64,000 nt of DNA, from positions 62,001-126,000 of the forward strand of contig JAIQFT010000013.1 of the NCBI GenBank assembly GCA_020073185.1, in the 5' to 3' direction. Below are positions 508-64,000 of this stretch, piece after piece. The position numbers and the translations under genes are program-made. Position 1 is the first letter of the stretch. Each line of letters opens with the position of its first letter. Below the pieces are notes generated by a model. It ran no database searches. It saw only the letters and a list, made by a program, of their open reading frames with translations, and was not told the DNA's origin. The DNA is from Terriglobia bacterium. Its GTDB lineage: Bacteria; Acidobacteriota; Terriglobia; Terriglobales; Acidobacteriaceae.

Positions 508-584
508 GGCAATTTGTAATTGGGCAATTTGTAATTTGAAATTTCGCCGGTTGCACCAAAATTACAAATTGCAGATTACAAATC
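508..584. repeat. Heptad inverted-repeat array (GCAATTTGTAATT words)
   Basis: The left arm consists of near-7-nt words of the type GGCAATT-TGTAATT. The right arm, 559-584, is the reverse-complement type AATTACA-AATTGCA-GATTACA. The two arms can pair as a long imperfect hairpin. It begins right after the atpA stop and ends just before the ribosome binding site of the following small gene. Similar words recur upstream of the rhodanese gene (about 21733-21757). Confidence 0.85.
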
Positions 585-596
585 ATGGAGGTCGCC

Positions 597-758
597 ATGA
601 CTTTGGAAGAGCTAGAAACTCTGATCGACGATACCAAGCGGCTGCCGCGTGCGGCGGACAAAGTCGCGCTGGCCACGGCGCTGGGCGTGCTGGAAGTGGC
701 GCGGCAGTTGGCGATCATGAATGCCGCGCTCGCAGAGCAGTCCAAGGCGAGGAGTTAG
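597..758 (+). CDS. Small hypothetical protein between atpA and atpG (53 aa)
   Basis: ATG at 597 is preceded by a clear Shine-Dalgarno GGAGG at 587-591, five bases upstream. The predicted 53-residue protein begins MTLEELETLIDDTKRLP and is acidic at the N-terminus. It continues with an Ala/Leu-rich amphipathic helix (VALATALGVLEVARQLAIMN). No membrane segment or known domain is recognised. Its place inside the F1 gene order and its good start signal argue for a real gene co-expressed with ATP synthase, perhaps an assembly or regulatory peptide (inference). The alternative is a chance ORF. Confidence 0.6.
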   Translation: MTLEELETLIDDTKRLPRAADKVALATALGVLEVARQLAIMNAALAEQSKARS

Positions 759-870
759 TTGTGAGTTCCGAGTTGCGAGCCGGAACAGCAGATTCCTCGC
801 GGGCTGAAGCCCGCTCGGAATGACAAGAACTTACAACGGCGGTTTCGCACGGCTAAAGCCGTGCGCTTCC
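759..870. repeat. Heptad arm plus two covarying TRAA-loop hairpins
   Basis: Three repeat types follow each other. At 762-782 there are GAGTTCC-GAGTTGC-GAGCC words. At 799-814 there is the perfect hairpin GCGGGC-TGAA-GCCCGC, followed by CGGAATGACAAG. At 847-864 there is GCACGGC-TAAA-GCCGTGC. The two hairpins share the loop type but have unrelated arm sequences that are each perfectly paired. Confidence 0.85.
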
Positions 871-888
871 ACGGTGGATCGTGGTTTA

Positions 889-919
889 GGAGCTAACGGC
901 TAAGAGCTAAATGGCTAAC
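889..919. repeat. Heptad array overlapping the atpG start codon
   Basis: The words GAGCTAA-CGGCTAA-GAGCTAA-ATGGCTAA run straight through the atpG initiation region, so the ATG at 911 and the second codon are part of the last word. The array therefore occupies the whole ribosome binding region of an essential gene. Confidence 0.85.
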
Positions 920-1948: not shown

Positions 1949-3475
<1,527 letters not shown>

Positions 3476-3480
3476 AACAC

Positions 3481-3541
3481 ATTTCAGTTTCAGTTTCGAG
3501 GCTCAGCCGTTGGGCGCTGGAACTGAAACTGAATCTGAAGC
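3481..3541. repeat. Heptad/hexad inverted-repeat array (TTTCAG / CTGAAA)
   Basis: The left arm, 3481-3502, reads TTTCAG-TTTCAG-TTTCGAGG. The right arm, 3519-3541, reads GGAACTGAAACTGAATCTGAA. It fills the gap between atpD and atpC and ends one base before the chosen atpC start. Confidence 0.85.
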
Positions 3542-3542
3542 T

Positions 3543-3950
3543 ATGGCCGAAACCTTACAACTCGAAATCGTCACTCCCGAGCGGCTGGTGGAGAAAGATG
3601 TCGTGGAGGAGATCCAGATTCCCGGCAAGAACGGGTACCTGGGGATCCTGCCGGGACACGCGCCCCTGATCACCGAACTTGGAGTGGGCGAAATTACCTA
3701 CAAGGCCGACGGCATGGCGTACTACGTCGCGGTGGCGTGGGGCTTCGCCGAGGTGCTGCCGGACAAGGTAACGATTCTGGCGGAGACGGCCGAGCGCGCC
3801 GAGAACATTGACGTGGAACGCGCGCGCAAGGCGAAAGAGCGCGCCGAAGAGCGTCTGCGCTCCGCCAGCGGAGAAGTAGACTACCAGCGCGCGCTGGTCG
3901 CGCTGGACCGGGCATGCGCGCGCCTGGACGTCGCGGAAAAGAAGAGATAG
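3543..3950 (+). CDS. atpC: F1F0 ATP synthase subunit epsilon
   Basis: This is the 135-residue epsilon subunit, which links gamma to the c-ring and regulates hydrolysis. It has the N-terminal beta-sandwich signature EIVTPERLVEKDVVEEIQIPGKNGYLGILPGHAPLI and the C-terminal two-helix domain (ERARKAKERAEERL). An in-frame ATG at 3510 exists, but the residues it would add (MGAGTETESEA) are a translation of the repeat array, so ATG 3543 is preferred. It is the last gene of the operon and is followed by a factor-independent terminator. Confidence 0.93.
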   Translation: MAETLQLEIVTPERLVEKDVVEEIQIPGKNGYLGILPGHAPLITELGVGEITYKADGMAYYVAVAWGFAEVLPDKVTILAETAERAENIDVERARKAKERAEERLRSASGEVDYQRALVALDRACARLDVAEKKR

Positions 3951-3972
3951 GCTTCAGGCTTCAGGCTAGAAG
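3951..3972. repeat. Heptad words GGCTTCA after atpC
   Basis: GCTTCAGGCTTCAGGCTAGAAG starts at the base after the atpC stop. It is a single-arm member of the AGGCTTC family also seen near 16.2, 34.5 and 47.3 kb. Confidence 0.7.
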
Positions 3973-4001
3973 ACGGCCGCATCGTGCGGCCGTTTGTCTT
4001 T
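3973..4001 (+). terminator. Factor-independent terminator of the atp operon
   Basis: The perfect stem CGGCCGCA/TGCGGCCG (3974-3981 with 3985-3992), with a TCG loop, is followed by TTTGTCTTT. It lies 23 bases after the atpC stop. Confidence 0.88.
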
Positions 4002-6883: not shown

Positions 6884-6893
6884 GAGCGAGAGT

Positions 6894-6979
6894 CTAGTTT
6901 CGAGTTTCCAGCGCCGGGCACGCGGTGAATGGGTTTTGGTTCCAGAGCGAAAGAACTAGAAAACAGAAACTGGAAACTG
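6894..6979. repeat. Heptad inverted-repeat array (TAGTTTCGAGTTTCCAG)
   Basis: The left arm CTAGTTTCGAGTTTCCAG (6894-6911) pairs with the right arm GAAACTGGAAACTG type words at 6954-6979. It belongs to the same word family as the atpG-atpD array. It lies between the kinase and phosphatase genes. Confidence 0.85.
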
Positions 6980-7001
6980 ATTTAGGATTACGCGGAAGAC
7001 G

Positions 7002-8575: not shown

Positions 8576-8602
8576 CGGCAGCCCATAGCGGGCCACGAAT
8601 TT

Positions 8603-8650
8603 CCACGGATCAGCACGGATCAAGCAAGGTTGATCGGTGGCGATCCGTGG
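8603..8650. repeat. CCACGGATCA inverted-repeat array
   Basis: CCACGGAT-CAGCACGGAT-CA is followed by the inverted copy TGATCGGTGG-CGATCCGTGG. The period is about 10 nt. The same words recur at 32161-32234 and 38938-39034. Confidence 0.8.
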
Positions 8651-8733
8651 CCGATTTGTTTTGTGCCATCCACCAGCGACTAGCGACCTGTTCTGCTACA
8701 CTGCTCGGCTTTCATTTCCTCAGCGAGGCAATC

Positions 8734-12441: not shown

Positions 12442-12768
12442 CGGCCGCTAAAAGGTATCTGGCTCAGCGGCTTTCCCGGCCTTACGAATCGTGTGAGAAC
12501 TTCAGTCGTGCCTGCGGCGCTGAACGATCTTTCCACTATGCCCCGCCGCTGAAGCGGCGGGCTATTCTCAATCGCCCCGCTGGGGCTGCGATGTCGCTGT
12601 TTCGCGCCGCCAGCAATCATGCGACCGATTCTCACAAAGACTCTTATGGACCGGGCTGTTTTCCATCGCCCGCTTCGACTTTGCGCAGGGCAGGCTCTGC
12701 GGGACTAAGGACGCGCCGGTCCGCAGGAATGCAGCACCGAACGAAGCGGATGAGATGGCCGCCCGCCA
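12442..12768. repeat. Gene-free stretch holding several hairpin repeats
   Basis: No gene is visible. The perfect hairpin CCCGCCGC-TGAA-GCGGCGGG lies at 12542-12561, GCCCC-GCT-GGGGC at 12574-12586, and an imperfect CAGGGCAGGCTCTG element near 12686-12699. All are members of hairpin classes found elsewhere in the window. Confidence 0.7.
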
Positions 12769-16217: not shown

Positions 16218-16224
16218 CGAAGGC

Positions 16225-16230
16225 AGTGTA
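16225..16230 (-). promoter_or_regulatory. -10 box TACACT 7 nt before xseA ATG
   Basis: This is the minus-strand hexamer TACACT. Spacing to the ATG at 16217 matches the leaderless pattern seen at several other genes here. Confidence 0.4.
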
Positions 16231-16236
16231 ACTCAG

Positions 16237-16268
16237 GCAGGCTTCAAGCTTGAGGCTGCAGGCTTCAC
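16237..16268. repeat. Heptad words AGGCTTCA / TGAGGCTGC
   Basis: AGGCAGGCTTCAAGCTTGAGGCTGCAGGCTTC-type words belong to the AGGCTTC family. They lie between the divergent xseA and DUF4440-like genes. Confidence 0.65.
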
Positions 16269-16281
16269 GCGCAGGGCTTAG

Positions 16282-16287
16282 TATATT
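16282..16287 (+). promoter_or_regulatory. -10 box TATATT 6 nt before ATG 16294
   Basis: TATATT is followed by GCCGCC and the ATG. The spacing implies a leaderless transcript. Confidence 0.45.
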
Positions 16288-16293
16288 GCCGCC

Positions 16294-16752
16294 ATGCGAC
16301 TAACCGTCACCCTCGCCGCTTCGCTATTGCTGCTGGCTCTCAGCGGGACGCCGACCGCCCAGGTTGATCCCAGCTCGTCTGCCGAACGGCAGATTCGGCA
16401 ACTCCACGCCCAACTCATCCAGGGCTATCTTCACAACGACGCCGGCTTGCTGAACCGCGTTTTGGCCGACGAGTACACGTTCATCGACGATTCCGGCCGA
16501 TTCCTCTCCAAGGCGCACATCATCGAGAGCTTTCGCTCCGGAGACCACCACATTTTTTCTTATGACATAAGCGAGGAGAAGGTCCACATTTACGGCAACG
16601 CGGCGGTCATGACCTACCGCTACGTCTCGAAGGAAAATTACAAGGGCCAGGATGAACGCGGCAACGATCGCATCACCCGGGTGTTTGCGAAGCAGCACGG
16701 AAGGTGGCAGATCGTAGCCGGGCAGGAGAGCAGGATTTCGTCGCCCAACTAG
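16294..16752 (+). CDS. Exported SnoaL/DUF4440-like protein
   Basis: The 152-residue protein has a signal peptide (LTVTLAASLLLLALSGTPTA, about residues 3-22) and an NTF2-like domain: QIRQLHAQLIQGYLHNDAGL, LADEYTFIDDSGRFLSK, then RVFAKQHGRWQIVAGQESR. DUF4440 members bind small ligands or act as enzymes in unrelated pathways, so no function is assigned. Likely periplasmic. Confidence 0.85.
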   Translation: MRLTVTLAASLLLLALSGTPTAQVDPSSSAERQIRQLHAQLIQGYLHNDAGLLNRVLADEYTFIDDSGRFLSKAHIIESFRSGDHHIFSYDISEEKVHIYGNAAVMTYRYVSKENYKGQDERGNDRITRVFAKQHGRWQIVAGQESRISSPN

Positions 16753-20901: not shown

Positions 20902-20978
20902 AAGAGGAGCTGGTAGGTAGGCGTTAGTAGTTGGGTTGGCATTTGCGAGTAGGAGTTAACGGGTCCAGCGCGACTTAT

Positions 20979-26418: not shown

Positions 26419-30057
<3,639 letters not shown>

Positions 30058-32199: not shown

Positions 32200-32234
32200 A
32201 TAAAAAATCCGTGTGAATCCGTGCCAATCCGTGG
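32161..32234. repeat. CGGATGAACG / AATCCGTG inverted-repeat array
   Basis: The left arm CCACGGATTTCCGCGGATGA plus ACGAGGATCGG overlaps the 3' end of the permease gene. The right arm (32206-32234) is ATCCGTGTGA-ATCCGTGCCA-ATCCGTGG, with a 10-nt period. It belongs to the same family as 8603-8650 and 38938-39034. Confidence 0.88.
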
Positions 32235-32242
32235 CGGCGCTT

Positions 32243-34542: not shown

Positions 34543-34617
34543 CTCCAGGCTTCAGGCTCCAGGCTGCAGGCGTATGACGTGGGTGACGTCGTTCCTGAAG
34601 CCTGAGGCCTGCAGCCT
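34543..34617. repeat. Heptad inverted-repeat array (AGGCTTC / GAAGCCT)
   Basis: The left arm CCAGGCTTCAGGCTCCAGGC (7-nt period) starts at the base after the hemL stop. The right arm CCTGAAGCCTGAGGCCTGCA lies at 34594-34613. It separates convergent genes and contributes the stop codon of the 38-aa ORF, so it may also serve as a bidirectional terminator. Confidence 0.88.
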
Positions 34618-34732
34618 ACTGCAACACCACTACCGCGATATAGAGCGCGATCACCATTACCGTCCAGCCGAAGCCGATGGGGATCAGGAATTCCTCTTCG
34701 AATCTGCGATATTTGCCGCTGTCGGAAGCCAT
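34616..34732 (-). CDS. Small single-span membrane protein (38 aa)
   Basis: ATG 34732 is preceded by AGGGG about seven bases upstream. The 38-residue product has a charged N-terminus (MASDSGKYRRFEEEFLIP) and one transmembrane helix (GFGWTVMVIALYIAVVVLQ). The composition is typical of genuine bacterial micro-membrane proteins. The stop codon lies in the adjoining repeat. No family is recognised. Confidence 0.6.
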   Translation of the reverse strand: MASDSGKYRRFEEEFLIPIGFGWTVMVIALYIAVVVLQ

Positions 34733-38937: not shown

Positions 38938-39034
38938 CGCGGATTCACAATGATCAAGAACGTCAATCGCTGTTTCATTCTGACTTCTTAATTCTTAATT
39001 TCTTCGATCCGCGTTCATCTGCGTAAATCTGCGG
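38938..39034. repeat. CGCGGAT / ATCTGCG inverted-repeat array
   Basis: The left arm ACCGCGGATTCACAATGATC and the right arm GATCCGCG-TTCATCTGCG-TAAATCTGCGG (10-nt period, 39006-39034) are separated by TTCTTAATTC words. The right arm overlaps the 3' end of the minus-strand nuclease-like gene. Confidence 0.82.
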
Positions 39035-44424: not shown

Positions 44425-44620
44425 GGCACGACTGAAAGTCGTGCCCTGACACGAGCCCAGCCCTGACACGGAGAGTCGTGCCCTGACGAGCCAGACACGA
44501 GCCAGTCGTGCCCTGACACGAGCCAGTCGTGCCCTGACACAAGCGCGTTTATCTGAATTCTGACACGGAGCCGGAGTCCCGTGTCAGGGCATGTCTTTCA
44601 GTCGTGCCGCAAAGTCACGT
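44425..44620. repeat. 21-nt tandem/inverted array with GTCGTGCC hairpins
   Basis: It starts with the perfect hairpin GGCACGACT-GAA-AGTCGTGCC (44425-44445). It then repeats AGTCGTGCCCTGACACGAGCC: 44437-44457, a variant from 44474, 44504-44524, and 44525-44545 with one substitution. Inverted fragments (CCGTGTCAGGGCATG at 44579-44593, TCAGTCGTGCC near 44599-44609) close it. The surrounding 44328-44716 contains no gene. Confidence 0.9.
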
Positions 44621-45223: not shown

Positions 45224-45319
45224 AGAATTAGGAATGCCGGCAGCGCCGCGCGATGTCACTGCGCCGCAATTCTTCATTCTCAGTCCTTCATTCTGAATTC
45301 CCCGTGCCTCCGCGGTGAA
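45222..45319. repeat. GAATTAGGAATG / CATTCTGAATTC words plus CACGGAG arm
   Basis: GAAGAATTAGGAATG and AATTCTTCATTCTCAG-TCCTTCATTCTGAATTCC form one inverted family. CCCGTGCCTCCGCGGTGAATCG is the arm of the CACGGAG family. The second half encodes the tail of TrmFO on the minus strand. Confidence 0.75.
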
Positions 45320-46734
45320 TCGCTTCGGTGGGAGATTGGACCGACGCGGGTGGGGCCAGGGCGGGCAGGGGATTCGGCGCGCAGGGGAAGGAAGCGTTTT
45401 TCAAATTCGCGCAGCCAGGCTTCCAGGTCGGCGAGAGCGCGTTCGCACTGCCGGCGATGGCGTAGAGCGCGGTCCCGAATCCTCTTCTCACCATTCAGCG
45501 GCGGCAATAAATCAAATGTGATGTTGGCGGGCTGGAAATCGCGCGCGTCGCTCTGCGTGATGTAGTGGACCAGCGATCCGAAGGCGGTGGCGCGCGGAGC
45601 GGGCAGCGATTGGGCGTCGCGCACCAGGGCGGCGGCGTGCAGCCCCGCGAGCAGCCCGGTGGCGATGGATTCGACATAGCCTTCCACGCCTGCAATTTGC
45701 CCCGCGAACAGCACGCGTGGGTGCGCTTTCATCTGCAGCGTGGGTGTGAGCAGTGCAGGCGCATTGATGTAGGTATTGCGATGGATCTGGCCGTAGCGCA
45801 GGAAGCGGGCCTTTTCCAGGCCGGGGATGAGGCGGAAGACCAGTTCCTGCTCGGGGAAGCGCAGGTGATTCTGGAAGCCGACGATGTTGTAGGAGTCGGC
45901 GCGCAGGTTCTCCTGACGCAACTGCACCACGGCGAAGGGGCGCTGCCCGGTGCGCGGGTCCACCAGGCCGACGGGCTTCATCGGTCCGAAGCGCAGGGTA
46001 TCGCGGCCGCGGCGCGCGATTTCCTCGATCGGCAAACAGCTCTCGAAATAATTCAGATTCTCCCAGTCGTGGCCTTCGACGGATTGCGCGGCGAGGAGGG
46101 CGTCGTAGAAGCGGTCGTACTCCTCGTGCGACATCGGGCAGTTGATGTAGTCGGCGGAGCCCTTGCCGTAGCGCGCTGCCAGGTAGACGCGCGAGCGGTC
46201 GATGGATTCGGCGTCCACGATCGGGCTGATGGAGTCGTAGAAGAACAGGTGTGGCACACCCGCCCCCGCGTGTGCGCTCAGGCGCGCGATGTCGTTCGCT
46301 AACGAATCCGAGGTCAGGGGCCCGGTGGCGATGATGGCGATACCGGAGTCTTCGTCAATCTGCGTTACCTCCTCGCGAATGACTGTGATGTGCGGGTGGT
46401 GGGAGACGGCCTCGGTGACCTGGGCAGCGAACATGGCGCGGTCTACGGCGAGGGCGTGCCCGGCCGGGACGGCGGTCTGGCGCGCGATCTCCAGCAACAG
46501 CGAGTCGGCGCGGCGCATTTCTTCCTTAAGCAGCCAGGGAGCGGTGAATTCCGACATCGACTTGAGCGAGTTGGAACAGACCAACTCCGCGAAATCGGCG
46601 GTCCGATGCGCGGGCGTGGTCCGTCGCGGGCGCATTTCGTAAAGCTCGACCGGGATGCCGCGGCGGGCACACTGCCAGGCGGCCTCGCATCCAGCCAGAC
46701 CCGCGCCGATGATTTTGACTGTCTGCTCGGGCAT
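45280..46734 (-). CDS. trmFO: tRNA (uracil-5-)-methyltransferase, folate/FAD-dependent
   Basis: The 484-residue flavoprotein makes ribothymidine 54 in tRNA using methylenetetrahydrofolate. The FAD motif VKIIGAGLAGCEAAWQCARR is at the start, ELVCSNSLKSMSEFTAPWL holds the conserved Cys, and VDRAMFAAQVTEAV and LFAGQIAGVEGYVESIATGL follow. ATG 46734 is chosen as the family start. The last residues (SPRRHGEFRMKD) and the stop are translated repeat sequence, so the natural C-terminus probably ended earlier. Confidence 0.95.
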   Translation of the reverse strand: MPEQTVKIIGAGLAGCEAAWQCARRGIPVELYEMRPRRTTPAHRTADFAELVCSNSLKSMSEFTAPWLLKEEMRRADSLLLEIARQTAVPAGHALAVDRAMFAAQVTEAVSHHPHITVIREEVTQIDEDSGIAIIATGPLTSDSLANDIARLSAHAGAGVPHLFFYDSISPIVDAESIDRSRVYLAARYGKGSADYINCPMSHEEYDRFYDALLAAQSVEGHDWENLNYFESCLPIEEIARRGRDTLRFGPMKPVGLVDPRTGQRPFAVVQLRQENLRADSYNIVGFQNHLRFPEQELVFRLIPGLEKARFLRYGQIHRNTYINAPALLTPTLQMKAHPRVLFAGQIAGVEGYVESIATGLLAGLHAAALVRDAQSLPAPRATAFGSLVHYITQSDARDFQPANITFDLLPPLNGEKRIRDRALRHRRQCERALADLEAWLREFEKRFLPLRAESPARPGPTRVGPISHRSDSPRRHGEFRMKD

Positions 46735-47293: not shown

Positions 47294-47307
47294 GGCGGTA
47301 TTATACG

Positions 47308-47378
47308 GAGGCTTCAGGCTGCAGGTCCGCTGATCCAGTGTGCGAATCCGTCTTTAGCCTGAAGCCTGGCGCCTGTGC
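47308..47378. repeat. Heptad inverted-repeat array (AGGCTTC / GCCTGAA)
   Basis: GAGGCTTCAGGCTGCAGGTCC and TAGCCTGAAGCCTGGCGCC pair across 24 bases. It lies between the KimA-like gene and the GNAT gene, upstream of the latter's start. Same family as 34543-34617. Confidence 0.85.
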
Positions 47379-47425
47379 TGGACTTACGTTTGCAGAATCC
47401 GGCTCTTCAATCCTGAAATCGAGAT

Positions 47426-49854: not shown

Positions 49855-49925
49855 GGGCGTGGAGCAAGCATTAGAAATCAAATCGTCGGTTTAGGGAAAT
49901 CGCCCCCGGAAGTAGAAGGGTAACC

Positions 49926-50012
49926 GGTAATTCGTAGCTGGTAGCTGGGCGGGCGACGATTTGAGTCGTGACTGGGCGCTCGTCCACTGCCAGTTACGAG
50001 CTACCAGCTACC
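49926..50012. repeat. Heptad inverted-repeat array (GTAGCTG / CAGCTAC)
   Basis: The left arm TTCGTAGCTGGTAGCTGGGC and the right arm AGTTACGAGCTACCAGCTACC (49991-50012) are separated by about 40 bases. The right arm overlaps the RDD gene end and encodes its last residues. Confidence 0.88.
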
Positions 50013-50866
50013 ACATACGTCCGCGTGATCCGGTCGTGCCAGCACAGCGTATCTTCATCCAGCAGCGCCCAGACCAGGCCCAGGCCAAGCGACAGGGTTG
50101 CCAGCACCATGGCGAGAGCACGACCGCGGCGGGTGCGGCGGCGCGCGCGGACGCCGTCGAAGGTGACCAGCTCCAGGCGCGCCAACTTCATGCCAGGCGT
50201 CGTTCCGGCGTAGACCAGGAACATATATTCGTAGATCGCCCAGAGCAAGCAAGGCGCGGCCAAGGCAACCAGGAAGCCGATTTTGGCGTGCGGCATGGGC
50301 ACGCCTGCTTTCAGCGTGATGATGACGAATACTGCCGCCCCAACCAGCGCGAGGAGTGCGTCCACAATCCCGGCAAAGACGCGCTGCGACATGGGCGCAA
50401 CCTGCAGCGGAAGCTCGAATTCCATCGCCGGGCGCTGCTCCGCCTCGGGCGCCACGTTGATGTCGGCCAGCGGCGCCGTGGTTTCCACTTCCTCGGAAAC
50501 ATCCAGGATGCGCGGCCGGTCGATGATCGTTTCGGCCAGTTCCTCGATCGAAGGCGGCGTCACCGGCAGCATCGCCTGGCGGGGAAACTCGATGATCTTC
50601 AAATCCTGGGGCCGCTCGAAGTGGTACCGCTCCTCGGTTTGCAACTCTGGGACAAAGTTCTCGACGGTTTCTGCGTGCGACTCGAGGCTCGGGACTTCAG
50701 ACTCCTCTTCCCGGCTGGCCGACAGATTCCCGCTGGTGATCTCGCGGTTGACGGCGCGTTCGAAATCCAGCGGCAGCGATCGCTCGCGAATCGGACGCCG
50801 CCGGCGCGCGCGGTAGCTCTCTACCCGCGACGCCACCTCCTGCCTCCAAATTGCCCCGTCTTCCAT
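49994..50866 (-). CDS. RDD-family membrane protein
   Basis: The 290-residue protein has a long hydrophilic N-terminal half starting WRQEVASRVESYRARRRRP and a C-terminal RDD domain (about residues 165-285) with MSQRVFAGIVDALLALVGAA, AIYEYMFLVYAGTTPGMKLA and the ending DEDTLCWHDRITRTYVV. RDD proteins are multi-span and of varied function (one is a Na+/H+ antiporter). The last residues VAGSS and the stop are repeat-derived. The 5' region looks eroded: see the remnant just upstream. Confidence 0.85.
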   Translation of the reverse strand: MEDGAIWRQEVASRVESYRARRRRPIRERSLPLDFERAVNREITSGNLSASREEESEVPSLESHAETVENFVPELQTEERYHFERPQDLKIIEFPRQAMLPVTPPSIEELAETIIDRPRILDVSEEVETTAPLADINVAPEAEQRPAMEFELPLQVAPMSQRVFAGIVDALLALVGAAVFVIITLKAGVPMPHAKIGFLVALAAPCLLWAIYEYMFLVYAGTTPGMKLARLELVTFDGVRARRRTRRGRALAMVLATLSLGLGLVWALLDEDTLCWHDRITRTYVVAGSS

Positions 50867-51281: not shown

Positions 51282-53819
51282 ATGACACTCCGCTCCCGAT
51301 TCCTTACCACGGCGCTGCTGCTTTGTCATCTGCTGCTGCTTCCGCAGTTAGTAACCAGCGAGGCGCTGGGGGACATGGTTAGTCGTTGGATGTTAGCCGC
51401 TGACCAAGCAGCAGCGCCGGTTTCGCCACGGCCAGCCACCAACGAGCAACGGCCAACGACCGGCCGTTCTCATCTTGCGGGGCCCAACGAACCCGGCGAA
51501 GAAGTCACCATCCAGGCGCTGCAGCAGGAAAAAGTGGGTGACGTGTACTACCTGCGCGGTGAGGTCGAAATCCGTTTTCGGCGCTTCGTGCTGCGTGCCG
51601 ACCAGATCACCTATGACGCCGCCAGCGGAGAGATCGCCGCCGAGGGGCACGTCGTGTTCGACGGCGGGCCGCACGATGAGCACCTGGAAGCCGACCACGG
51701 CGCCTATAACGTGCGTACCGACAGCGGCAAATTCTACGAGGCGCGCGGCACCACCGGCGCGCGCTTCCGCGGGCGGCAGGTGTTGCTGACCTCGTCGAAC
51801 CCGTTTTTCTTCAGCGGGTCGCTGGTGGAGAAGGACGGCCCCAACCACTTTGTCGTGCACCACGGCGTGGTCACCTCGTGCGAGCTGCCGCACCCCAAGT
51901 GGACCTTCGAGGCACAGAGGGTCACGGTGGAAGTGGGTGAGGAAGCGCGCATGTACCACAGCAGCTTCCGGCTGGGTGGTATCCCGATTTTTTATTTTCC
52001 CTACGTCCAGCATCCGGTGGACAAGCTCGGGCGCCAAACCGGTTTCCTCATCCCCACCATCGGCCAGTCGTCGCGCAAGGGCACGATCTTGGGCGAAGCG
52101 ATCTACTGGGCCATCAACCGCAGCCTGGATGCGACCATGGGCGCCGAATATTATTCGCAACGCGGTTGGGCACAACACGGCTCGTTTCGCGCTCGGCCGA
52201 GCGCCACCTCGTATTTCAACGTCAACTATTTCGGCGTGCTTGACCGCGGCACGGGTTCGCCCAAGGTGGACCAGGGCGGTGAGGACATCCGCGCCAACGG
52301 CGAAATCCAGTTGCCGCACGGCTTCCGCGCGGTGGCCGACATCAATTACCTGAGCACGTTTGTCTTCCGGCTGGCCTTCGCCGAGACCTTCACCTTGGCG
52401 GTGAATTCCGAAGTGCGCTCCAACGCGTTCATCTCCCAAGCGTACCAGGGTTACTTCTTCAACCTCGCCGCCTCGCGCTACCAGAACTTCCAAAGCACCA
52501 CGCGCGGCGACTTGGTAACCATCCTGCATGCGCCGTCGCTCGATCTGGGCAGCGTGGACCACCCGATCGGGCGCTCGGGGTTTTACTGGTCGTACGACGC
52601 GGCGGTGCAAGGCGTGTCGCGGCGCGAGCCGCAGTTCGTGACCGCACCGCTGGTCGGCCGCCTGGACGTGGAGCCGCGACTGTCGCTGCCGCTGAACCAC
52701 GCCGGATGGAGCTTCCGCCCCGAGGTCGCGCTGCGCGATACCTACTACACGCAGCGGCTGGCGACCACCGACGTGCCGCAGAGCGGTATCGGCGCGCTGA
52801 TTGACCGCGCGCTCAACCGGCGCGCGCTGGAAACCACGGTCGAGCTGCGGCCACCGTCGCTTTCGCGCGTCTTCGAACAACAGGTGAAGGACCACATCCT
52901 CAAGCACACCATCGAGCCGCGCGTCGTCTATCGCTACGTCGCCGGGGTGGACAATTTTGCGGCGATCATCCGCTTCGACGCGCGCGACATCCTCAGCAAC
53001 ACCAACGAACTCGAGTACGGCATCATTCACCGCCTGTACGCCAAAGGCACAAAGTCCACCGAGTGCACCAATCGGGTGGAGCAACCAACGGACGAGGCGG
53101 CACCGTCCGTGCCGCTGCCCGCCGCGCCGGAGGTGGCGCCGCGCAAGGGTATGGTGGTCCCGGTGACGGGCTGCCAGCCGGGCCCGCCGGCGTCGCGCGA
53201 AATCATGAGCTGGGAGGTCGCGCAGAAGTATTTCTTCGATACCAACTTCGATGACGCGCTCGTGCCCGGCCGCCGCAACGTGTTCACCACCAGCGCCGAA
53301 TTCAGTGGCATCGCCTTTGTCACCGACCCGCGACGCTTTTCCCCGATCATCTCCCGCCTGCGCGCCTATCCCGGGCGCCGCACCGAGGTGGAGTGGAAGC
53401 TGGATTACGACACGAAAAAAGGCCTGATCAACGCCAGCACCACGCTGGTCTCGCACCGCTTTGGCGATTTTTTCGTCGCCGGCAGCCACGCCTTTCTGAA
53501 TGTGCCGGGCGAAATTTTTGTGCCTACGCTGGCGCCGGGGCCGAGCCAGTTCAACCAGTTTCGCTGGCTGGTAGGCTACGGCCATCCCAACAAGCGCGGC
53601 GTCAGCGCCGCCGCCAATGTCGGCTTCGACATCAACTCCGGTTTCCTGCAGTACTCCGCGTTCCAGACCAGCTACAACTGGGACTGCTGCGGCGTGAGCT
53701 TCGAATACCGGCGCTTCGCGCTGGGCTCGGTGCGCAACGAGAACCAGTTCCGCTTCGCGCTTTCGCTGACCAACGTGGGGACGTTCGGCACGCTGCGGCG
53801 GCAGGAACGGCTGTTCTAG
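51282..53819 (+). CDS. lptD: LPS-assembly protein LptD (OstA)
   Basis: The 845-residue outer-membrane beta-barrel inserts LPS into the outer leaflet. It has an N-terminal signal (TTALLLCHLLLLPQLVTSEA), an OstA beta-jellyroll (VYYLRGEVEIRFRRFVLRAD, AAEGHVVFDGG, about residues 85-200), and a large C-terminal barrel starting at IPIFYFPYVQHPVDKLGRQ. Two Cys-bearing loops occur around residues 600-635. Residues about 50-62 (RPATNEQRPTTGR) are a translated repeat in the linker after the signal. The gene indicates a diderm cell envelope. Confidence 0.9.
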   Translation: MTLRSRFLTTALLLCHLLLLPQLVTSEALGDMVSRWMLAADQAAAPVSPRPATNEQRPTTGRSHLAGPNEPGEEVTIQALQQEKVGDVYYLRGEVEIRFRRFVLRADQITYDAASGEIAAEGHVVFDGGPHDEHLEADHGAYNVRTDSGKFYEARGTTGARFRGRQVLLTSSNPFFFSGSLVEKDGPNHFVVHHGVVTSCELPHPKWTFEAQRVTVEVGEEARMYHSSFRLGGIPIFYFPYVQHPVDKLGRQTGFLIPTIGQSSRKGTILGEAIYWAINRSLDATMGAEYYSQRGWAQHGSFRARPSATSYFNVNYFGVLDRGTGSPKVDQGGEDIRANGEIQLPHGFRAVADINYLSTFVFRLAFAETFTLAVNSEVRSNAFISQAYQGYFFNLAASRYQNFQSTTRGDLVTILHAPSLDLGSVDHPIGRSGFYWSYDAAVQGVSRREPQFVTAPLVGRLDVEPRLSLPLNHAGWSFRPEVALRDTYYTQRLATTDVPQSGIGALIDRALNRRALETTVELRPPSLSRVFEQQVKDHILKHTIEPRVVYRYVAGVDNFAAIIRFDARDILSNTNELEYGIIHRLYAKGTKSTECTNRVEQPTDEAAPSVPLPAAPEVAPRKGMVVPVTGCQPGPPASREIMSWEVAQKYFFDTNFDDALVPGRRNVFTTSAEFSGIAFVTDPRRFSPIISRLRAYPGRRTEVEWKLDYDTKKGLINASTTLVSHRFGDFFVAGSHAFLNVPGEIFVPTLAPGPSQFNQFRWLVGYGHPNKRGVSAAANVGFDINSGFLQYSAFQTSYNWDCCGVSFEYRRFALGSVRNENQFRFALSLTNVGTFGTLRRQERLF
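51428..51468. repeat. Heptad array (CCAACGA) in frame inside lptD
   Basis: The words CCAACGA-GCAACGG-CCAACGA-CCGG are bounded by ACGGCC and GGCCGT, which can pair. It lies in frame in the linker after the signal peptide. Confidence 0.75.
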
Positions 53820-57599: not shown

Positions 57600-57613
57600 C
57601 TGTTTCGCGATCG

Positions 57614-57676
57614 ATAGCTCGTAGCTGGTAACCTTCGACGCCGGTTGCCGCCTACCATCTCCCAGCTACCAGCTAC
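57614..57676. repeat. Heptad inverted-repeat array (GTAGCTG / CAGCTAC)
   Basis: GATAGCTCGTAGCTGGTAACC and CCCAGCTACCAGCTAC pair across about 20 bases. It fills the gap before the lipid kinase gene and ends four bases before its ATG. Confidence 0.88.
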
Positions 57677-57680
57677 TTTC

Positions 57681-58655
57681 ATGCGCCGCGCGCTGCTGCT
57701 CTACAACCCGGAATCCGGCCGGCGACGCGGCCGGCGCGCCGCCGACGTGCAAGCGGCTGCCGCCGCCTTCAAGGCCGCCGGTGTGGAACCGGTGCTGCAG
57801 CCGACGCGCGCGCCGGGCAGCGCCGCCGAACAGGCGCGCGCAGCCATCGAACGCGGCTGCGATGGAGTAATCGTCTGCGGCGGCGACGGCAGCGTGCACG
57901 AAGTGCTGCCCGCAGTGGTCGGAACTGAGGTAGCGCTCGGCGTCATTCCGCTCGGTACCGGCAATGGCCTGGCGCACGATCTCGGCCTGCCGCACCATCC
58001 CGCTAAGGCCGCGCAACTGCTCGCCGCAGCCGGAACAAGGTCCACCCTTTTGCCGCGCGTCGAGTTCACGCGCCTCGATGGCGTTCCAGACCGCCGTTAC
58101 TGCATCGTGGGCGCGGGTGTCGGCGCCGACGCTCGAATGGTGTATCGGCTGGGGCTCGGATTCAAGCAGCGCTGGGGCATGGCCGCGTACTACGCCGAAT
58201 CCACGCGCCAGTGGTTGACGCACGATTTCCCGCTGTTCACCGCCGAGTTCCGCTACCAGGACGGAGACCTGCGGCGCGAGCAGGTCTCGCAAGTACTCGC
58301 TGTCCGCATCACCTCCTTTGGAGGGTTGTTGGACAAGCTCGCTCCCGGCGCCGCGCTCATTCGTCCCGACTTTCAGTTGGTCCTGTTCAAGACGCGCAGC
58401 CGGATGTCATTTCTACGCTACATGATGGGCGTGTGGACGAATCGGCCTTCTGCGCAGTCTGACATCGAAATCCTGCCCTCCACCGAATGCCGATGTTTAC
58501 CGCTAGAAACGAGAAACCGGAAGCTCGAAACTCGCATCTACGCCGAGGCCGACGGCGAACTACTCGGCACGCTTCCCGTCACCATCACCATGTCGGGCGA
58601 AAGCGTGAAACTGCTGGTGCCGCGCGCTGCGGCGTCGAAATCCGCTGTGCTATAG
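57681..58655 (+). CDS. YegS/DagK-type lipid kinase
   Basis: The 324-residue kinase phosphorylates diacylglycerol or a related lipid. NADK/DagK-fold motifs are LLYNPESGRRRGRRAADVQA at the start, VIVCGGDGSVHEVLPAVVG and GVIPLGTGNGLAHDLGLP. The C-terminal fold ends with IYAEADGELLGTLPVTITM. Just before this, residues about 275-285 (LETRNRKLETR) are a translated heptad array inserted in frame. ATG 57681 follows a repeat array directly, so no clear ribosome site is seen. Confidence 0.92.
   Translation: MRRALLLYNPESGRRRGRRAADVQAAAAAFKAAGVEPVLQPTRAPGSAAEQARAAIERGCDGVIVCGGDGSVHEVLPAVVGTEVALGVIPLGTGNGLAHDLGLPHHPAKAAQLLAAAGTRSTLLPRVEFTRLDGVPDRRYCIVGAGVGADARMVYRLGLGFKQRWGMAAYYAESTRQWLTHDFPLFTAEFRYQDGDLRREQVSQVLAVRITSFGGLLDKLAPGAALIRPDFQLVLFKTRSRMSFLRYMMGVWTNRPSAQSDIEILPSTECRCLPLETRNRKLETRIYAEADGELLGTLPVTITMSGESVKLLVPRAAASKSAVL
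58502..58535. repeat. Heptad array (GAAACCG/GAAACTC) in frame inside the lipid kinase
   Basis: GAAACGA-GAAACCG-GAAGCTC-GAAACTC-G has a clean 7-nt period and codes LETRNRKLETR. Same word family as the atpG-atpD array. Confidence 0.85.
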
Positions 58656-59505: not shown

Positions 59506-61749
59506 GTGGGGTTCAGTGAGCAATACGACGTAGTGGTGGTCGGCGCCGGGCACGCCGGATGCGAGGCCGCCATGGCTGCCGCGCGCATGGGCTTGAAGAC
59601 CGCACTGTTCACGCTTAACCTCGACCTGATCGCGCAGATGTCCTGCAACCCGGCAGTGGGCGGCATTGCCAAGGGCCACCTGGTGCGCGAAGTCGACGCG
59701 CTGGGCGGCATCATGGGCGAGGTCACCGACGCGGTCGGCATCCAGTTCCGCCTGCTCAACACCTCCCGCGGCCCGGCCGTCTGGTCGCCGCGCGCGCAGT
59801 GCGACAAACAGCAGTACCGCCTGAAGATGCGCCAGGTATTGGAGTCACAGGAGAACCTGAAAATCAAACAGGCGGAAGTGGCCGATTTGATGGTCGACGA
59901 GGACGGCCATCGACCATCGACAGTCGACCGTCGACGCATTGTGCGCGGGATTGCCCTTCGCGATGGACGGACCATCGCCGCCCAAGCCGTCATTATCACC
60001 ACCGGCACCTTTCTCAACGGCCTCATCCACTGCGGCGAGCAACAGATTCCCGCCGGACGCAGCGGCGAACCGCCCTCCGTTCTGCTCGGCGAAAACATCA
60101 AGAAGCTCGGCCTGCGCGGCTGCCGCCTGAAGACCGGCACGCCCCCGCGTCTCGACGGACGGACCATTGACTGGACGCGCTTCCAGATGCAGCCTGGCGA
60201 TGCCGACCCCACGCCTTTCAGCTTCCGTACTCGCCGCGTCGCCCACGCCGACCGCCAGGTGCCCTGCTACATCGCGTTCACGACCGAGGAGACACACCGC
60301 GTCATCCGCGAAAACGTGCACCGCTCGCCCATGTACACCGGCCAGATCAAATCTATCGGACCACGATACTGTCCTTCGATTGAGGACAAGATCGTCAAGT
60401 TTTCCGACAAGCCGACGCACCAGTTGTTCCTCGAGCCTGAGGGGCTGAACACGCACGAGATCTACGTCAATGGCATGTCCACCTCGCTCCCCTACGAAGT
60501 GCAGGCCGCTATTTTGAAGTCCATCCCCGGCCTCGACCAGGCCGACATGCTGCGCCCCGGCTACGCCATCGAGTACGACGCCATTGATCCGACCGAGCTG
60601 GAGCGTACGCTGGAAACCAAGCAGATCGCGCGCCTCTTCCTGGCCGGGCAGATCAACGGCACCAGCGGCTACGAGGAAGCGGCGTGCCAGGGAATCATGG
60701 CAGGGATCAATGCGGCGCTGGCCGTCAAGGGCGGGCCGCCGCTCATCCTCGACCGCACCGAAGCGTATACGGCGATCCTGATTGATGACCTCATCAGCAA
60801 GGGCACCAACGAGCCCTATCGCATGTTCACCTCGCGCGCCGAGTTTCGCCTGCACCTGCGCATTGACAACGCCGACCGCCGCCTCACGCCTTACGGCCGC
60901 CGCGTCGGATTGATCTCCGACCAGGCTTGGTCCGCCTATCTCGCCAAACAGGAGCGCATGACGGCGCTGAAGGAAGTGCTGGAGAAAACCAAGCTCAGCG
61001 GTGAAATGCTGGAGGGGATTGAGAAGCCGATGGTCGATGGCCAGCGGTCGATGGTCGGCAGTCGGCGGTTGATGGCCGAAGTGCTTGAAGATACAGACAA
61101 TGAATTAAGCGGCTGTCATCCCGAGCGAGGGTGCACGCCCGAGTCGAGGGACCTTGCGTTGCCTGACCTGACCGCGAATCTCGGCGCCCCTCTCGCGCAA
61201 TTGCTCAAGCGGCCCGAGATCACGATCGAAAAGCTGACTGAAGTTTTGCGCGGACTTTTGCCTGATTTCTTCGAGCCCCGTAGGGGCGGTCCGCTGGTCG
61301 CCCAGCGCGGAAGTGCTGAGTCAGGCGATCATCTCAATCTCGAGTCCCGCAGGGACGACGCTGACGATTGCCTGCTCGTGCGTCAAATCCCCGCGTTCCG
61401 TCTGCAACCCATACCACGCAACCCGAACGCTCTTTCCGCCGAAATCGGCAACGAATTGAGGTCGGTCGAAACCGAAATCAAGTACGCCGGCTACCTCAGC
61501 CAGCAGCAGAAGGCGATCGAGCGCTTGAAGAAGGCCGAACAGCGCACTATCCCCGATTGGTTTGACTACGCCTCGGTCAGCGGCCTCTCCCGCGAGATGA
61601 AGGAAAAGCTGCAGCGCGTTCGCCCGCGCACCATCGGCCAGGCCAGTCGCATTCCGGGCGTCACCCCGGCGGCGGTGTCGCTCATCAATGTGTACATTGA
61701 AATCCAGGCGCGCCGCGCGCAACAGGCTTCGGCGCTCTCCTCGGACTGA
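59506..61749 (+). CDS. mnmG: tRNA uridine-5-carboxymethylaminomethyl synthase, enlarged by repeats
   Basis: The 747-residue FAD protein works with MnmE to modify U34 of tRNAs. Core motifs are intact: [70 protein letters not shown] and the C-terminal [20 protein letters not shown] plus [20 protein letters not shown]. The usual length is about 620-650. The excess comes from repeats read in frame: [10 protein letters not shown] near residue 135, a GGTCGAT array near 508-524, a CHPERG...PESRDL segment near 536-551, and two hairpin elements near 590-617. The start is GTG 59506, supported by the TACAAT box. Confidence 0.95.
59904..59935. repeat. Heptad array (CCATCGA/CCGTCGA) in frame inside mnmG
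   Basis: CCATCGA-CCATCGA-CAGTCGA-CCGTCGA-CG encodes [10 protein letters not shown]. The second half is the partial reverse complement of the first. Confidence 0.9.
61027..61077. repeat. Heptad array (GGTCGAT) in frame inside mnmG
   Basis: The words ATGGTCG-ATGGCCAGCGGTCG-ATGGTCGGCAGTCGGCGGTTG encode [15 protein letters not shown]. Same family as the mfd array. Confidence 0.85.
61276..61356. repeat. Two GNA/GYA-loop mini-hairpins in frame inside mnmG
   Basis: CCCC-GTA-GGGG (61277-61286 region) and GTCCC-GCA-GGGAC (61344-61356) are compact hairpins of the same class as GCCCC-GCT-GGGGC at 12574. They encode EPRRGG and ESRRDD. A GTCATCCCGAGCGAGG...GTCGAGGGACC element (61113-61153) lies nearby in the same insert zone. 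Confidence 0.75.
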
Positions 61750-61769
61750 TTCCTCCGGCCTCGCTGCAC

Positions 61770-61790
61770 GGAAACTCGAAACTGAAACTG
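61770..61790. repeat. Heptad words GGAAACTCGAAACTGAAAC
   Basis: A single arm of the GAAACTG family between convergent mnmG and the zinc-ribbon gene. Confidence 0.65.
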
Positions 61791-61793
61791 TAT

Positions 61794-62285
61794 TTATGCT
61801 CCCGCGCTGCGCACCAGCGCCTGGTATTCCTGGTCCGCGCCCGGCGACACGAGCACCCACAGCGTGTAAACCCCCAGTGCAGTGCCGAATGGAATATTGA
61901 TCAGCGAAATGACCCCCAGCACGATCGCCAGGATGCGCCCCCAATCCTGACGCTGGAGCAGGCCGAGACCGGCCGCGATCCCCACCGCCGCTTTACACAA
62001 CAGCACGATCGCGATGGCCGACAGCAGAGGCCGGATAAACATGGGCGGCCCTCCCGGCATGGAAGGCAACCCGAGCGGCCCGAATATGGTGTGCGAAACG
62101 ACCATCAGAATTACCCCGCCCAACAGAGAAATTGCGGAATACGCGATCCACAAAATCCCCAGCAGGTGCGTGTGCCGCGCCACCCGCCCGCTGCCCGCCA
62201 CCACCGGCCCGATCACCTGCTTGCCGCAGCGCTTGCAGTAGCCCTGCCCCGCCTGCAACGCTTCCCCGCATGAATCGCAAAACAT
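61794..62285 (-). CDS. Zinc-ribbon membrane protein
   Basis: The 163-residue protein has an N-terminal zinc ribbon (MFCDSCGEALQAGQGYCKRCG, four Cys in two CxxC pairs). About four transmembrane helices follow, including LGILWIAYSAISLLGGVILM and LLSAIAIVLLCKAAVGIAAG. Such proteins are common and uncharacterised. It is downstream of and convergent with mnmG. Confidence 0.85.
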   Translation of the reverse strand: MFCDSCGEALQAGQGYCKRCGKQVIGPVVAGSGRVARHTHLLGILWIAYSAISLLGGVILMVVSHTIFGPLGLPSMPGGPPMFIRPLLSAIAIVLLCKAAVGIAAGLGLLQRQDWGRILAIVLGVISLINIPFGTALGVYTLWVLVSPGADQEYQALVRSAGA

Positions 62286-62412
62286 AGCCGTGCCCCTTTC
62301 CTCGGCTTCGACAGGAGATACGCGCCCGCAACCACGAAAGTTCCGCCGTTTCTTCGCCCGCCCTGATTTCGGATCCGCGGCGATTCGCTCCGCGCCCCGT
62401 AGTTTTTCGCGG

Positions 62413-64000
62413 CTATTGGCGAATCTCCCCTAGCGCCCGTTCTGTCGCCTTCAGCAGCGCTTCCGGCCCGACCGGCTTGCCCGTCGCGTGTGTCATCCAC
62501 AAATCCGGCGCGACGCTGCCGTAGCTGGCCATGCGCTCGAACTCCGGCCCCACCTTGCCCGCCTTCTTCATCCGCTCTTCGATCTGGAAGGCGATCATGT
62601 GCCCGATCGGGTAGTCCGGCAGGTAGAGAAACGAGTGGATCATGTGCGAGTACACCGCCAGCAGCACCACATCTTTTTTCTTGAACACCGGCGCGTAGTA
62701 CTGGTTCCACACGTCTTTGGCGATCTGCACCGTGGCCTCGCGCAACTGGGCTGGCGTCGCGTTGGGATGGTCGTACATCCAGTGCCACACCGCCATGTCG
62801 ACCAGCGCCACGCCCGCAATCTCGTACGTTCCCCAGAAGTCGTTCAGCGTGCGCAGCGCCTCATCTTTTGCGCTCGGCGAGTGCAGGCCCAGCAATTCCA
62901 AATCGCGCGCCTGGAAGACGAAAGCCAGCGCCTCGGTGAACGCGGTGTTGGGCACGCCCGAGAGCAGCCAGTGGTCTACGTCCTTCATCGAGAACGTCTG
63001 CTCCACGTTGTGCCCCATCTCGTGCACCGCGATGTTGAAGCCCTTGTAATTCATGCCCGCCTTATCGACGCGCGTGCGCAGGTGCACCTTGGCGTCGCGC
63101 ATCTGCGCGCCCCAGGCGTGACCGGACCCGCGTGCCGGATCGACAACGATGTTTTCCGCCACATAGCGCGCGCGCTCCGGCGCGAAGCCCAGCTTCACCA
63201 GCAGGTTCGGAATATCCGTGCGATACGCCTCCGCCGTTGGGTAGCGCTTGCGCACCATCTCGTCGAGCTGCGCCTCGTTGTATTCCGACTTCGGCCGGAA
63301 CCCGGAGTACCAGACGTCAAACGGCTCCAGCGGACGCCCCAGCCGCTTCTCGATCAGCGCCGCAATCTTCGGAACCAGCGGCGAGCTGACCACGTCCACC
63401 AGCATCTGGCGTACCCGCGGCTCCGGGATCTCGCGGTTCTCGTCGAAGCGCCGCGCAATCAGGGTGGGCGCCGTCGGCGAGTATGGGTCCAGCTTGCGCT
63501 CGGCAAAATAATCGTTCTGCAGGACGGCATAGCGCGTGTCCGGCTCGCGCGCATTGGTTGTGTGGCTCGGGTCTCCGACCCGAGAGGGTTTGAAGTCCGA
63601 ATCCTTCTCCGCTGCCGGCTTCACCTCATTCGTCCAGGGATTCCAGTCTACCTGCGGATTGTTGATCGCCGCCTCCGGAATGGTCTGCGTGACGATCCGC
63701 TCCATCACCTGCTGCACCGTGCGCTGCTTCGCCAGGGCGTTTGGCAGGTCATAATCCGCCTTGATCTCGTCGCGCAGATTCCAATGCGACAGCAGCCTCA
63801 TACCTTTTGGGAAGAGTCGCGTATCGCCAGCGCGCGAATCCGCGTTTGTTGAAAGCTGCGAGCTAAGAGCTGAAGGCTGCCCCACCACGTGGTACATCCA
63901 AAGGTTGTACTCGGCGATGTAGTTGTCCGCGTTGGCGCGCGCCTGCGCGATGGCCAGGTTCACCTCCGCCGGCACGCGCTTGGAGAACCTCTGCGCCAGG
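62413..64000 (-). CDS. M3-like zinc metallopeptidase, N-terminus beyond window
   Basis: The reading frame is open to the right edge, so at least 529 residues are present and the N-terminus is missing. The gluzincin motif is NIAVHEMGHNVEQTFSMKD, followed by NTAFTEALAFVFQARDLE with the likely third zinc ligand Glu. This resembles M3-type oligopeptidases but the family assignment is tentative. Two repeat-derived inserts are read in frame near the N-terminal side: QPSALSSQLSTN (63849-63880) and PSRVGDPSHTTN (63566-63584 region). It may be exported or cytoplasmic; the signal region is not visible. Confidence 0.8.
   Translation of the reverse strand, partial: LAQRFSKRVPAEVNLAIAQARANADNYIAEYNLWMYHVVGQPSALSSQLSTNADSRAGDTRLFPKGMRLLSHWNLRDEIKADYDLPNALAKQRTVQQVMERIVTQTIPEAAINNPQVDWNPWTNEVKPAAEKDSDFKPSRVGDPSHTTNAREPDTRYAVLQNDYFAERKLDPYSPTAPTLIARRFDENREIPEPRVRQMLVDVVSSPLVPKIAALIEKRLGRPLEPFDVWYSGFRPKSEYNEAQLDEMVRKRYPTAEAYRTDIPNLLVKLGFAPERARYVAENIVVDPARGSGHAWGAQMRDAKVHLRTRVDKAGMNYKGFNIAVHEMGHNVEQTFSMKDVDHWLLSGVPNTAFTEALAFVFQARDLELLGLHSPSAKDEALRTLNDFWGTYEIAGVALVDMAVWHWMYDHPNATPAQLREATVQIAKDVWNQYYAPVFKKKDVVLLAVYSHMIHSFLYLPDYPIGHMIAFQIEERMKKAGKVGPEFERMASYGSVAPDLWMTHATGKPVGPEALLKATERALGEIRQ
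63566..63584. repeat. Perfect hairpin CTCGGGTC-TCC-GACCCGAG inside the peptidase
   Basis: An 8-bp perfect stem with a 3-nt loop, read in frame as SRVGDPS on the minus strand. Confidence 0.8.
63849..63880. repeat. Heptad array (AGCTAAG/AGCTGAA) inside the peptidase
   Basis: AGCTGCG-AGCTAAG-AGCTGAA-GGCTGCC has an exact 7-nt period and codes SALSSQLST on the minus strand. Related to the array at the atpG start. Confidence 0.85.

Follow-up and report, generated by a model that had tools for sequence, protein, structure and literature searches.

What kind of process can lay down tandem repeats of one unit length at many sites of a genome without repeating any one sequence? The question is raised by a window of 64,000 nt (G000:C13:62001-126000) from the draft genome (4.66 Mb, 121 contigs) of a bacterium of the class Terriglobia, family Acidobacteriaceae. 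The window starts in the ATP synthase operon, and from the spacers of this operon onwards it carries short arrays of degenerate 7-nt words, many of them facing their own reverse complement across a short gap. A preliminary description of the window had grouped these arrays into one class and supposed a common mechanism behind them. The strongest point of our analysis is one that a reader of a single sequence could not see: in related genomes the hairpin at an orthologous site often has the same layout but a different word, in both of its arms. The sites thus appear to be inherited and the words not, the words drifting with time.

Arrays were detected with a self-similarity scan at fixed offsets, using dinucleotide-shuffled DNA as the control (a single shuffle for each shuffled figure in the period scans of this genome and of the Trichormus plasmid discussed below). 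The main scan covered 464 kb, consisting of the window and 400 kb more of the same genome, with about 100 kb of intergenic DNA; a further 400 kb of the genome was taken in later. Genes were called with a simple codon-based script, and the division into intergenic and genic arrays depends on those calls. Period 7 dominated the intergenic DNA, with 99 segments of score at least 9 against 2 in the shuffled sequence, 73 against 1 at a score of at least 11 and 50 against 1 at a score of at least 13. Period 14, a harmonic of 7, gave 55 against 3, and all the other periods from 4 to 18 gave 3-18 segments against 0-7. Inside genes the excess at period 7 was small (19 against 10 shuffled, score at least 9). 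The arrays contain about 3-6 degenerate copies of the 7-nt word, and some are built of 6-nt or 10-nt words instead. The window alone holds 25 period-7 segments of score at least 9 and a small number with a period of 6, 8 or 10. The window-wide class is therefore real, extends to the genome at large and withstood the comparison with shuffled DNA that could have dismissed it. Extrapolating from the 83 intergenic arrays of score at least 10 in the 464 kb, we estimate several hundred arrays in the whole genome.

The words themselves are very diverse. Among the 83 intergenic arrays there are 58 distinct canonical words, so that the "at least six" word families first noticed were indeed multiple but undercounted. 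When the own genome and its relatives were taken together in four sequence groups, 254 arrays yielded 144 distinct words (these counts include genic arrays, and the genus group includes orthologous sites of three genomes), with identical or near-identical word pairs roughly two- to ten-fold above composition-shuffled words. Since the period is common and the sequence is not, the arrays are, as had been supposed, better explained by a shared process that generates or maintains them than by copying of a single element, which the word diversity led us to reject. The 7-nt tandem units, mostly intergenic and above chance, with several degenerate word families per genome, place the arrays in the class of heptanucleotide repeats or long heptameric simple sequence repeats, the cyanobacterial members of which are known as STRRs. 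Short palindromes of 4 nt within the words were considered as a seed and discarded: their frequency was 0.49 against 0.43 in shuffled words for the own genome, no clear effect, and in the most distant group 0.16, below the shuffled 0.25. A known RNA family was discarded as well, the sole Rfam match in the window at the gathering threshold being an unrelated Acido-Lenti-1 RNA (RF01687) at 12542-12587, with 45.5 bits.

About half of the arrays, not all, are hairpin pairs. An inverted partner (score at least 10) was found within 120 bp of 39 of the 83 intergenic arrays, against 5.4% of control draws, and an extra direct copy in 6 of the 83. The window contains about ten inverted pairs that we judged clear (Table 1), the rest being single arrays; the inverted architecture attributed to over twenty loci was therefore an overcount. 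In a set of 83 hairpins whose arms measured 21 nt or more, positions agreed with the pairing partner in 82% of cases (a figure favoured by the register having been picked as the best one). Agreement with the neighbouring word of the same arm was 74% and with the opposite arm offset by 7 it was 72-74%; other offsets gave about 25%. A second class of inverted pairs has words of about 10 nt (AATCCGTGGN, CACGGAGACA, CACCGAGA) and was seen at 8593-8650 and 32160-32235 and in spacers of the sister genomes G001 and G002.

The window was compared site by site with three sister genomes (G001, G002 and G003) and with the locus L021. L021 and G001 may be one assembly, the G001 stretch C133:4066-5120 corresponding to L021. 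In this SRVP_22 assembly there may be two different atp operons, whose identity to the window at atpD is 94% and 86%, and the bin may mix two organisms. The clearest replacement is in the atpG-atpD spacer, where the window has GTTTCCA/TGGAAAC and G001, G002 and L021 have TTCAGCT/AGCTGAW, both arms having changed. This case is polarised, AAACTGG of the window standing against AGCTGAW of the other three in both arms of spacers that hardly differ in length (78-84 nt). In the atpD-atpC spacer four genomes have four words, that of the window being the 6-nt one, and G003 lacks a clear paired arm. At 6884-7001 three genomes differ, with CAGTGGT words in G001 and GTCGGTG plus AAACCG words in G002. Related AGGCTNC words are found at 34543-34622 in the window and G001, and G002 has there a mosaic of CAGTCGC and CAGGCTC words. 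G001 also has a strong CAGGCTC array at 20902-20978, where the window has only a weak and different one, and 10-nt AATCCGTG words at 57600-57680, where the window has heptamers. Other sites have kept their word, namely AGGCTTC at 16218-16326 (G001) and at 47294-47425 (G001 and G002), and the spacer 508-584 is identical in G001 and has AGGCTNC words in L021. When array presence was checked at orthologous sites, several arrays proved to be in one genome only and others were shared.

At the shared sites, orthologous words were closer than permuted pairs in the three comparisons made: 1.67 against 2.98 between the window and G001 (P 0.0002, 9 sites), 2.0 against 2.86 between the window and G002 (P 0.003, 8 sites) and 1.29 against 2.51 between G001 and G002 (P 0.003, 7 sites). 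This is what indicates inherited sites with words that drift.

The spacers of the ATP synthase operon allowed us to extend the comparison. Relatives were taken from the loci of the 80 best AtpG matches, with titles nearly all from Acidobacteria or its subgroups (two name other phyla), together with family and order loci, giving 94 atpG-atpD and 86 atpD-atpC spacers of all lengths. Of the 80 named loci, 36 had one or more intergenic period-7 segments (score at least 10). The arrays are frequent in the loci nearest to the window and turn up again in L079, L087, L091, L092, L094 and L096, which are more distant. In 35 loci one or both atp spacers (60-320 nt) contained a period-7 segment, amounting to 46 distinct spacers with many words; among these loci are Silvibacterium bohemicum (L038), Terriglobus roseus (L053), further loci from the family of the window and L091. 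The pattern is patchy, all 6 loci from a second family of the same order being without arrays in these spacers. An inverted repeat of score at least 12 was found in 47 of the 93 atp spacers of 45-320 nt (duplicates included), most of them heptameric, the few exceptions including L066, with 10-nt words, and the atpG-atpD spacers of L088 and L105. The distance from the stop codon to the 5' arm is usually 0-20 nt, and that from the 3' arm to the following start codon 0-40 nt. Identical spacers, such as those shared by L026 and L108, were dropped from the mismatch, arm-complementarity and word-distance tests. With 23 distinct spacers per site, complementarity between the arms of one spacer was 15.6 and 14.2 at the two sites, against 8.1 and 7.2 between arms of different species, and the observed mean was not attained in any of 10,000 permutations. 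Between species, 5' arms were hardly better matched to each other (9.3 and 7.2). Judging from these sequences, the two arms are evolving in concert. Mixed states also exist: the atpD-atpC spacer of L106 has GGTCGTT on one side and AGCTAAG on the other, and that of L029 is similar.

We favour, with somewhat better than even confidence, a mechanism in which slippage in 7-nt steps and template switching in hairpins would together produce concerted evolution in place. Replication slippage would duplicate a word in steps of 7 nt. Where a mirror copy is present, the strand could fold into a hairpin and the polymerase could switch template from arm to arm, so that a change in one arm would pass to the other, much as quasipalindromes are corrected. 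With further rounds a mutated word would spread through both arms, the site being inherited and the word drifting, and sister species would end with the same layout and different words. Selection would mainly filter where arrays are tolerated. Template switching is reported to homogenise short inverted repeats in E. coli (PMC7202029) and in yeast (PMC8604942). The period, the pairing, the sites, the behaviour of the arms and the balance of G.U and A.C mismatches (see below) are observed; from their pattern we infer slippage and template switching as agents, and any reason for the number 7.

Words could also be replaced by gene conversion or recombination with arrays elsewhere, drawing on a dictionary shared across the genome. 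In the own genome word pairs are identical in 0.99% of cases against 0.30% after composition shuffling, and have one mismatch in 5.2% against 2.4%; the two atp spacers of one species are also somewhat closer in word (2.23, 13 pairs) than those of different species (2.78), which is what a common dictionary predicts. Most pairs of sites, however, differ by 2-4 of the 7 letters and orthologous sites stay closer than random. Arms of about 30 nt made of degenerate words are, besides, short for homologous recombination, and we consider this explanation quite unlikely.

A different question is whether the hairpins are maintained as RNA. Selected RNA hairpins (for processing, mRNA stability or termination) would have co-varying arms, since mutations that break pairing are selected against, and their stems should tolerate G.U better than A.C. 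Among arm mismatches on the sense strand of 97 hairpins from co-directional spacers we counted 97 G.U and 98 A.C (43:34 in the 38 atp-spacer hairpins and 54:64 in the other 59). The stems of 16 tRNAs from the fetched loci, in which ARAGORN-bracketed pairs and unpaired stem positions were counted, gave 27:8. As G.U equals A.C, a process at the DNA level, with copying between arms, is favoured over selection of RNA hairpins. Furthermore, many relatives have spacers of 3-30 nt without any hairpin at the same place, and selection for pairing alone gives no period of 7. The RNA explanation gains from the recurrence of the stop-to-start layout in many relatives, from a 5' arm rich in T and G on the sense strand, and from array density, which is higher in co-directional than in divergent spacers of the own genome (1.71 against 0.93 per kb), of the genus (1.78 against 1.22) and of other relatives (1.92 against 0.31, the former value inflated by the choice of the atp locus). 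On balance we see it as unlikely.

Candidate agents were sought by comparing array-rich and array-poor genomes, represented by 20 named loci with arrays and 20 with none, drawn from the 80, with the own genome added. The rest of the 80 were left out, among them L083, L086, L089, L092 and L096, which have several arrays each, and other array-free loci. Genomes were classified from a single locus of 4-21 kb each, and the comparisons are not corrected for phylogeny. SbcD is part of a hairpin-cutting nuclease. It passed the family cut-off in 1 of the 41 acidobacterial genomes, with weak matches in 8 more, and matched in 13 of 14 control genomes, in 8 over the cut-off; such scarcity may let hairpins persist. 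Loss of SbcCD was rejected as the cause of the difference between rich and poor genomes, SbcD being nearly absent from both groups (the search covered SbcD and not SbcC). Loss of mismatch repair was rejected too (MutS matches in 41 of 41 genomes, over the cut-off in 36), as were reverse transcriptases as the writer of the arrays (1.05 per genome in the rich set and 0.95 in the poor one, P 0.32).

Finally, a mobile-element system, RAYT/REP-like or other, might insert or replace arrays at favoured sites. The preliminary description saw no transposase or RAYT gene; this holds for the 30 window proteins scanned with Pfam and not for the genome, which has 12 Y1_Tnp matches. These matches are more numerous in array-rich genomes than in array-poor ones (means of 5.5 and 2.6, Mann-Whitney P 0.007 without correction for phylogeny and with one 4-21 kb locus per genome), and some arrays are present in one sister genome and missing from the other. 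Acidobacteria are reported to carry Y1 transposases with terminal repeats, and the arrays resemble the REP palindromes associated with Y1 (RAYT or TIRYT) transposases in being short palindromes in many copies in a genome with Y1 genes (PMC3733652). Unlike the REP families with a conserved tag described there, they form no conserved palindromic family: 144 words in 254 arrays leave no shared recognition sequence. Nor is the link with Y1 consistent. In the six of the 12 Y1_Tnp loci that were inspected, arrays did not consistently flank the transposase: an array lay no further than 400 bp from the Y1 match in one of them, and two had no array at all. One array-rich genome, that of L024, had no Y1 match. 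The orthologous words, closer than random, also speak for inherited sites, and we regard a mobile element as very unlikely. Equally a long shot, but different in kind, is a dedicated DNA-writing activity, blind to sequence and with a fixed step of 7 nt, weak or absent in array-poor relatives; it would duplicate any word it meets along the strand and copy it across the hairpin, so that the cell would keep hairpins in chosen spacers under constant rewriting of their sequence.

Several observations weigh against slippage with template switching as we propose it. The present data leave the step size of 7 without explanation. An inverted partner is lacking in about half of the arrays, so that hairpin copying cannot be the sole process. 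SbcD over the cut-off in 0 of 21 array-rich and 1 of 20 array-poor genomes does not explain why they differ. Part of the signal in the word-distance test comes from sites with identical words (3 of 9 between the window and G001), and arrays are often in one genome only (4 in the window only and 3 in G001 only; 2 and 6, respectively, in the comparison of the window with G002). The tRNA control is small (16 tRNAs, 5 unmatched positions), and hairpins without arrays in such spacers have hardly more G.U than A.C (33:28), so that they do not serve as a positive control; this qualifies the argument against RNA hairpins. The 5' arms have a strand polarity, with T over A (716:505) and G over C (703:553) on the sense strand, showing that selection or another strand-aware force acts too; the lower array density of divergent spacers likewise means that selection is at work. 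No within-species variation was observed, and contig ends were not enriched in arrays, which stood at 0 of 24 contig starts of the own genome and at 1 of 17 contig ends in relatives, the background being 1.8%. Assembly breaks or strain variation at arrays were rejected on this ground, in a small test in which some of the 24 starts duplicate each other. Contigs of the own genome with identical starts (L005/L242, L011/L253 and L254/L259) are perhaps mobile-element ends, which may account for those particular breaks.

Repeats of seven nucleotides are known from other bacteria. Heptanucleotides are reported to be the most abundant long simple repeats in most genomes examined by Mrazek and colleagues, who proposed an explanation of the number 7 by polymerase contact (cited in PMC4679880 and PMC4692102). 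They are described in Calothrix and Nostoc (PMC4692102) and in Microcystis and others (PMC4679880), and like the arrays studied here the cyanobacterial ones are intergenic, degenerate and of several words. In a plasmid of Trichormus variabilis (250 kb) we found period 7 to be the commonest, with 11 segments against 0 shuffled at a score of at least 11, and some of its words and inverted pairs resemble those of the window; the arrays are denser here, with 83 period-7 segments in 464 kb at the same score. Hairpin pairing had been put forward as a contrast with cyanobacteria, and this does not hold, since the plasmid arrays are also inverted (3 of 10, against 6% of control draws) and the words of the Nostoc trnL P6b region pair (PMC4476775).

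This P6b stem-loop, in the trnL (UAA) group I intron of Nostoc, with Class I TDNGATT and Class II NNTGAGT words, is the closest parallel. Its 7-nt words pair across the stem-loop, the structure is kept when the word class is replaced, a 7-nt repeat is gained or lost, and related strains have independent replacements (PMC4476775). The arrays described here behave similarly: the words of one side pair with those of the other in 39 of 83 arrays and in the atp spacers, about half failing to do so, and both arms change their word class while retaining the structure, apart from sites that keep their word and spacers with mixed arms. They differ in place and number. P6b is one intron site with two word classes, whereas here many protein-gene spacers carry many words at sites common to relatives, none of them in a tRNA-Leu group I intron, the window containing no tRNA. 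The available parts of PMC4692102 and PMC4679880 yielded no description of concerted word turnover at orthologous protein-gene spacers for the cyanobacterial repeats; indels between two Cyanothece strains are mostly of 7 nt (PMC4679880).

The TAACTGA repeats of Beggiatoaceae are likewise heptamers in spacers, often near start codons, but one word dominates there, in 169 direct sets and one indirect, unlike the many words and common pairs found here (PMC4679880). The GGGAATC and GGGGA(C/T)T heptamers of Xanthomonas and Nostoc also form many arrays, mostly intergenic and some inverted, and in two Xanthomonas species they lie mostly between the same genes with variable length and sequence; their word is fixed, G-rich and capable of forming G-quadruplexes, whereas here it is free (PMC4692102). 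No report of these arrays was found in the literature on heptanucleotide or heptamer repeats of Acidobacteria, most subscription journals being outside the coverage of the search. Heptanucleotide repeats and motif replacement in Nostoc P6b were thus already known; what is new is inherited sites with concerted word change in both arms.

That arrays enter genes had been rightly noticed. In mfd, mnmG/gidA and the diacylglycerol kinase gene, alignment with G001-G003 showed that they correspond to stretches variable among sister species in length and sequence, between conserved flanks. The kinase gene has a GAAAC-type word at one length in the window, G001 and G003, and a longer CGACCGT array in G002. 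MnmG/GidA has 747 aa, and heptamer arrays, translated in one case as RPSTVDR, make up part of its length-variable stretches. Another gene of the GIDA family is located at 45280-46734. Stop-free words are 31 of 32 in genic arrays against 73.5 of 115, a comparison that is biased because arrays with stops fall outside called genes. Outside the heptamer class, 21-nt tandem units GACACGAGCCAGTCGTGCCCT (44494-44544, 96% matches) adjoin a looser 17-nt array in the spacer after a TldD/PmbA-like gene, the whole repeat covering 44437-44544.

Table 1 Arrays of short words in the window, with the inverted pairs judged clear (ORF, open reading frame)
Position	Array	Strand	Clear pair	Context
511-544 + 559-583	inverted pair AATTTGT/AATTACA		yes	between atpA and next ORF
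754-779	single GTGAGTT-like array			end of 57-aa ORF, before atpG
1948-2020	inverted pair GTTTCCA (1948-1978) / TGGAAAC (1997-2020)		yes	atpG-atpD spacer
3482-3542	inverted pair, 6-nt words TTTCAG / CTGAAA		yes	atpD-atpC spacer
3949-3967	single AGGCTTC array			after atpC
6884-7001	inverted GTTTC / GAAAC words		yes	between protein-kinase gene and PP2C gene
8593-8650	10-nt words CACGGATCAG / reverse complement		yes	followed by short CCAGCGA array, 8666-8687
16238-16270	single AGGCTTC/AGGCTGC array			upstream of exonuclease VII large subunit gene
28860-28925	arrays CGATGGT and GTCGACG	-		inside mfd (26419-30057)
32160-32235	inverted 10-nt words AATCCGTGNN		yes	end of amino-acid permease gene
34543-34622	inverted pair CTCCAGG / CCTGAAG		yes	
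38978-39000	TTCTTAA array			within outer CCGCGGATT ... GATCCGCG frame
47309-47375	inverted pair AGGCTTC / AGCCTGA		yes	
49919-50018	inverted pair GTAGCTG (49919-49948) / AGCTACC (49992-50018)		yes	
51432-51461	single CCAACGA array			
57613-57676	inverted pair TAGCTCG.. / CCAGCTA..		yes	
58505-58539	AGAAACT array	+		inside diacylglycerol-kinase gene
59904-59935	CGACCAT array	+		inside mnmG/gidA (59506-61749)
61028-61069	CGATGGT array	+		inside mnmG/gidA, length-variable region
63854-63879	weak AGCTGAG/AGCTAAG array, score 9			

The two atp spacers, with many words in 35 loci, provide a natural series of rewriting beside conserved genes, and make the preference of some bacteria for 7-nt repeats testable. 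Hairpins that co-vary could mislead if read as RNA structure, since the complementarity of the arms comes here without a G.U signature. The pattern suggests a source for the length-variable stretches of proteins such as Mfd and MnmG, and it suggests that concerted evolution takes place in bacteria at the scale of 30 nt, acting on DNA.

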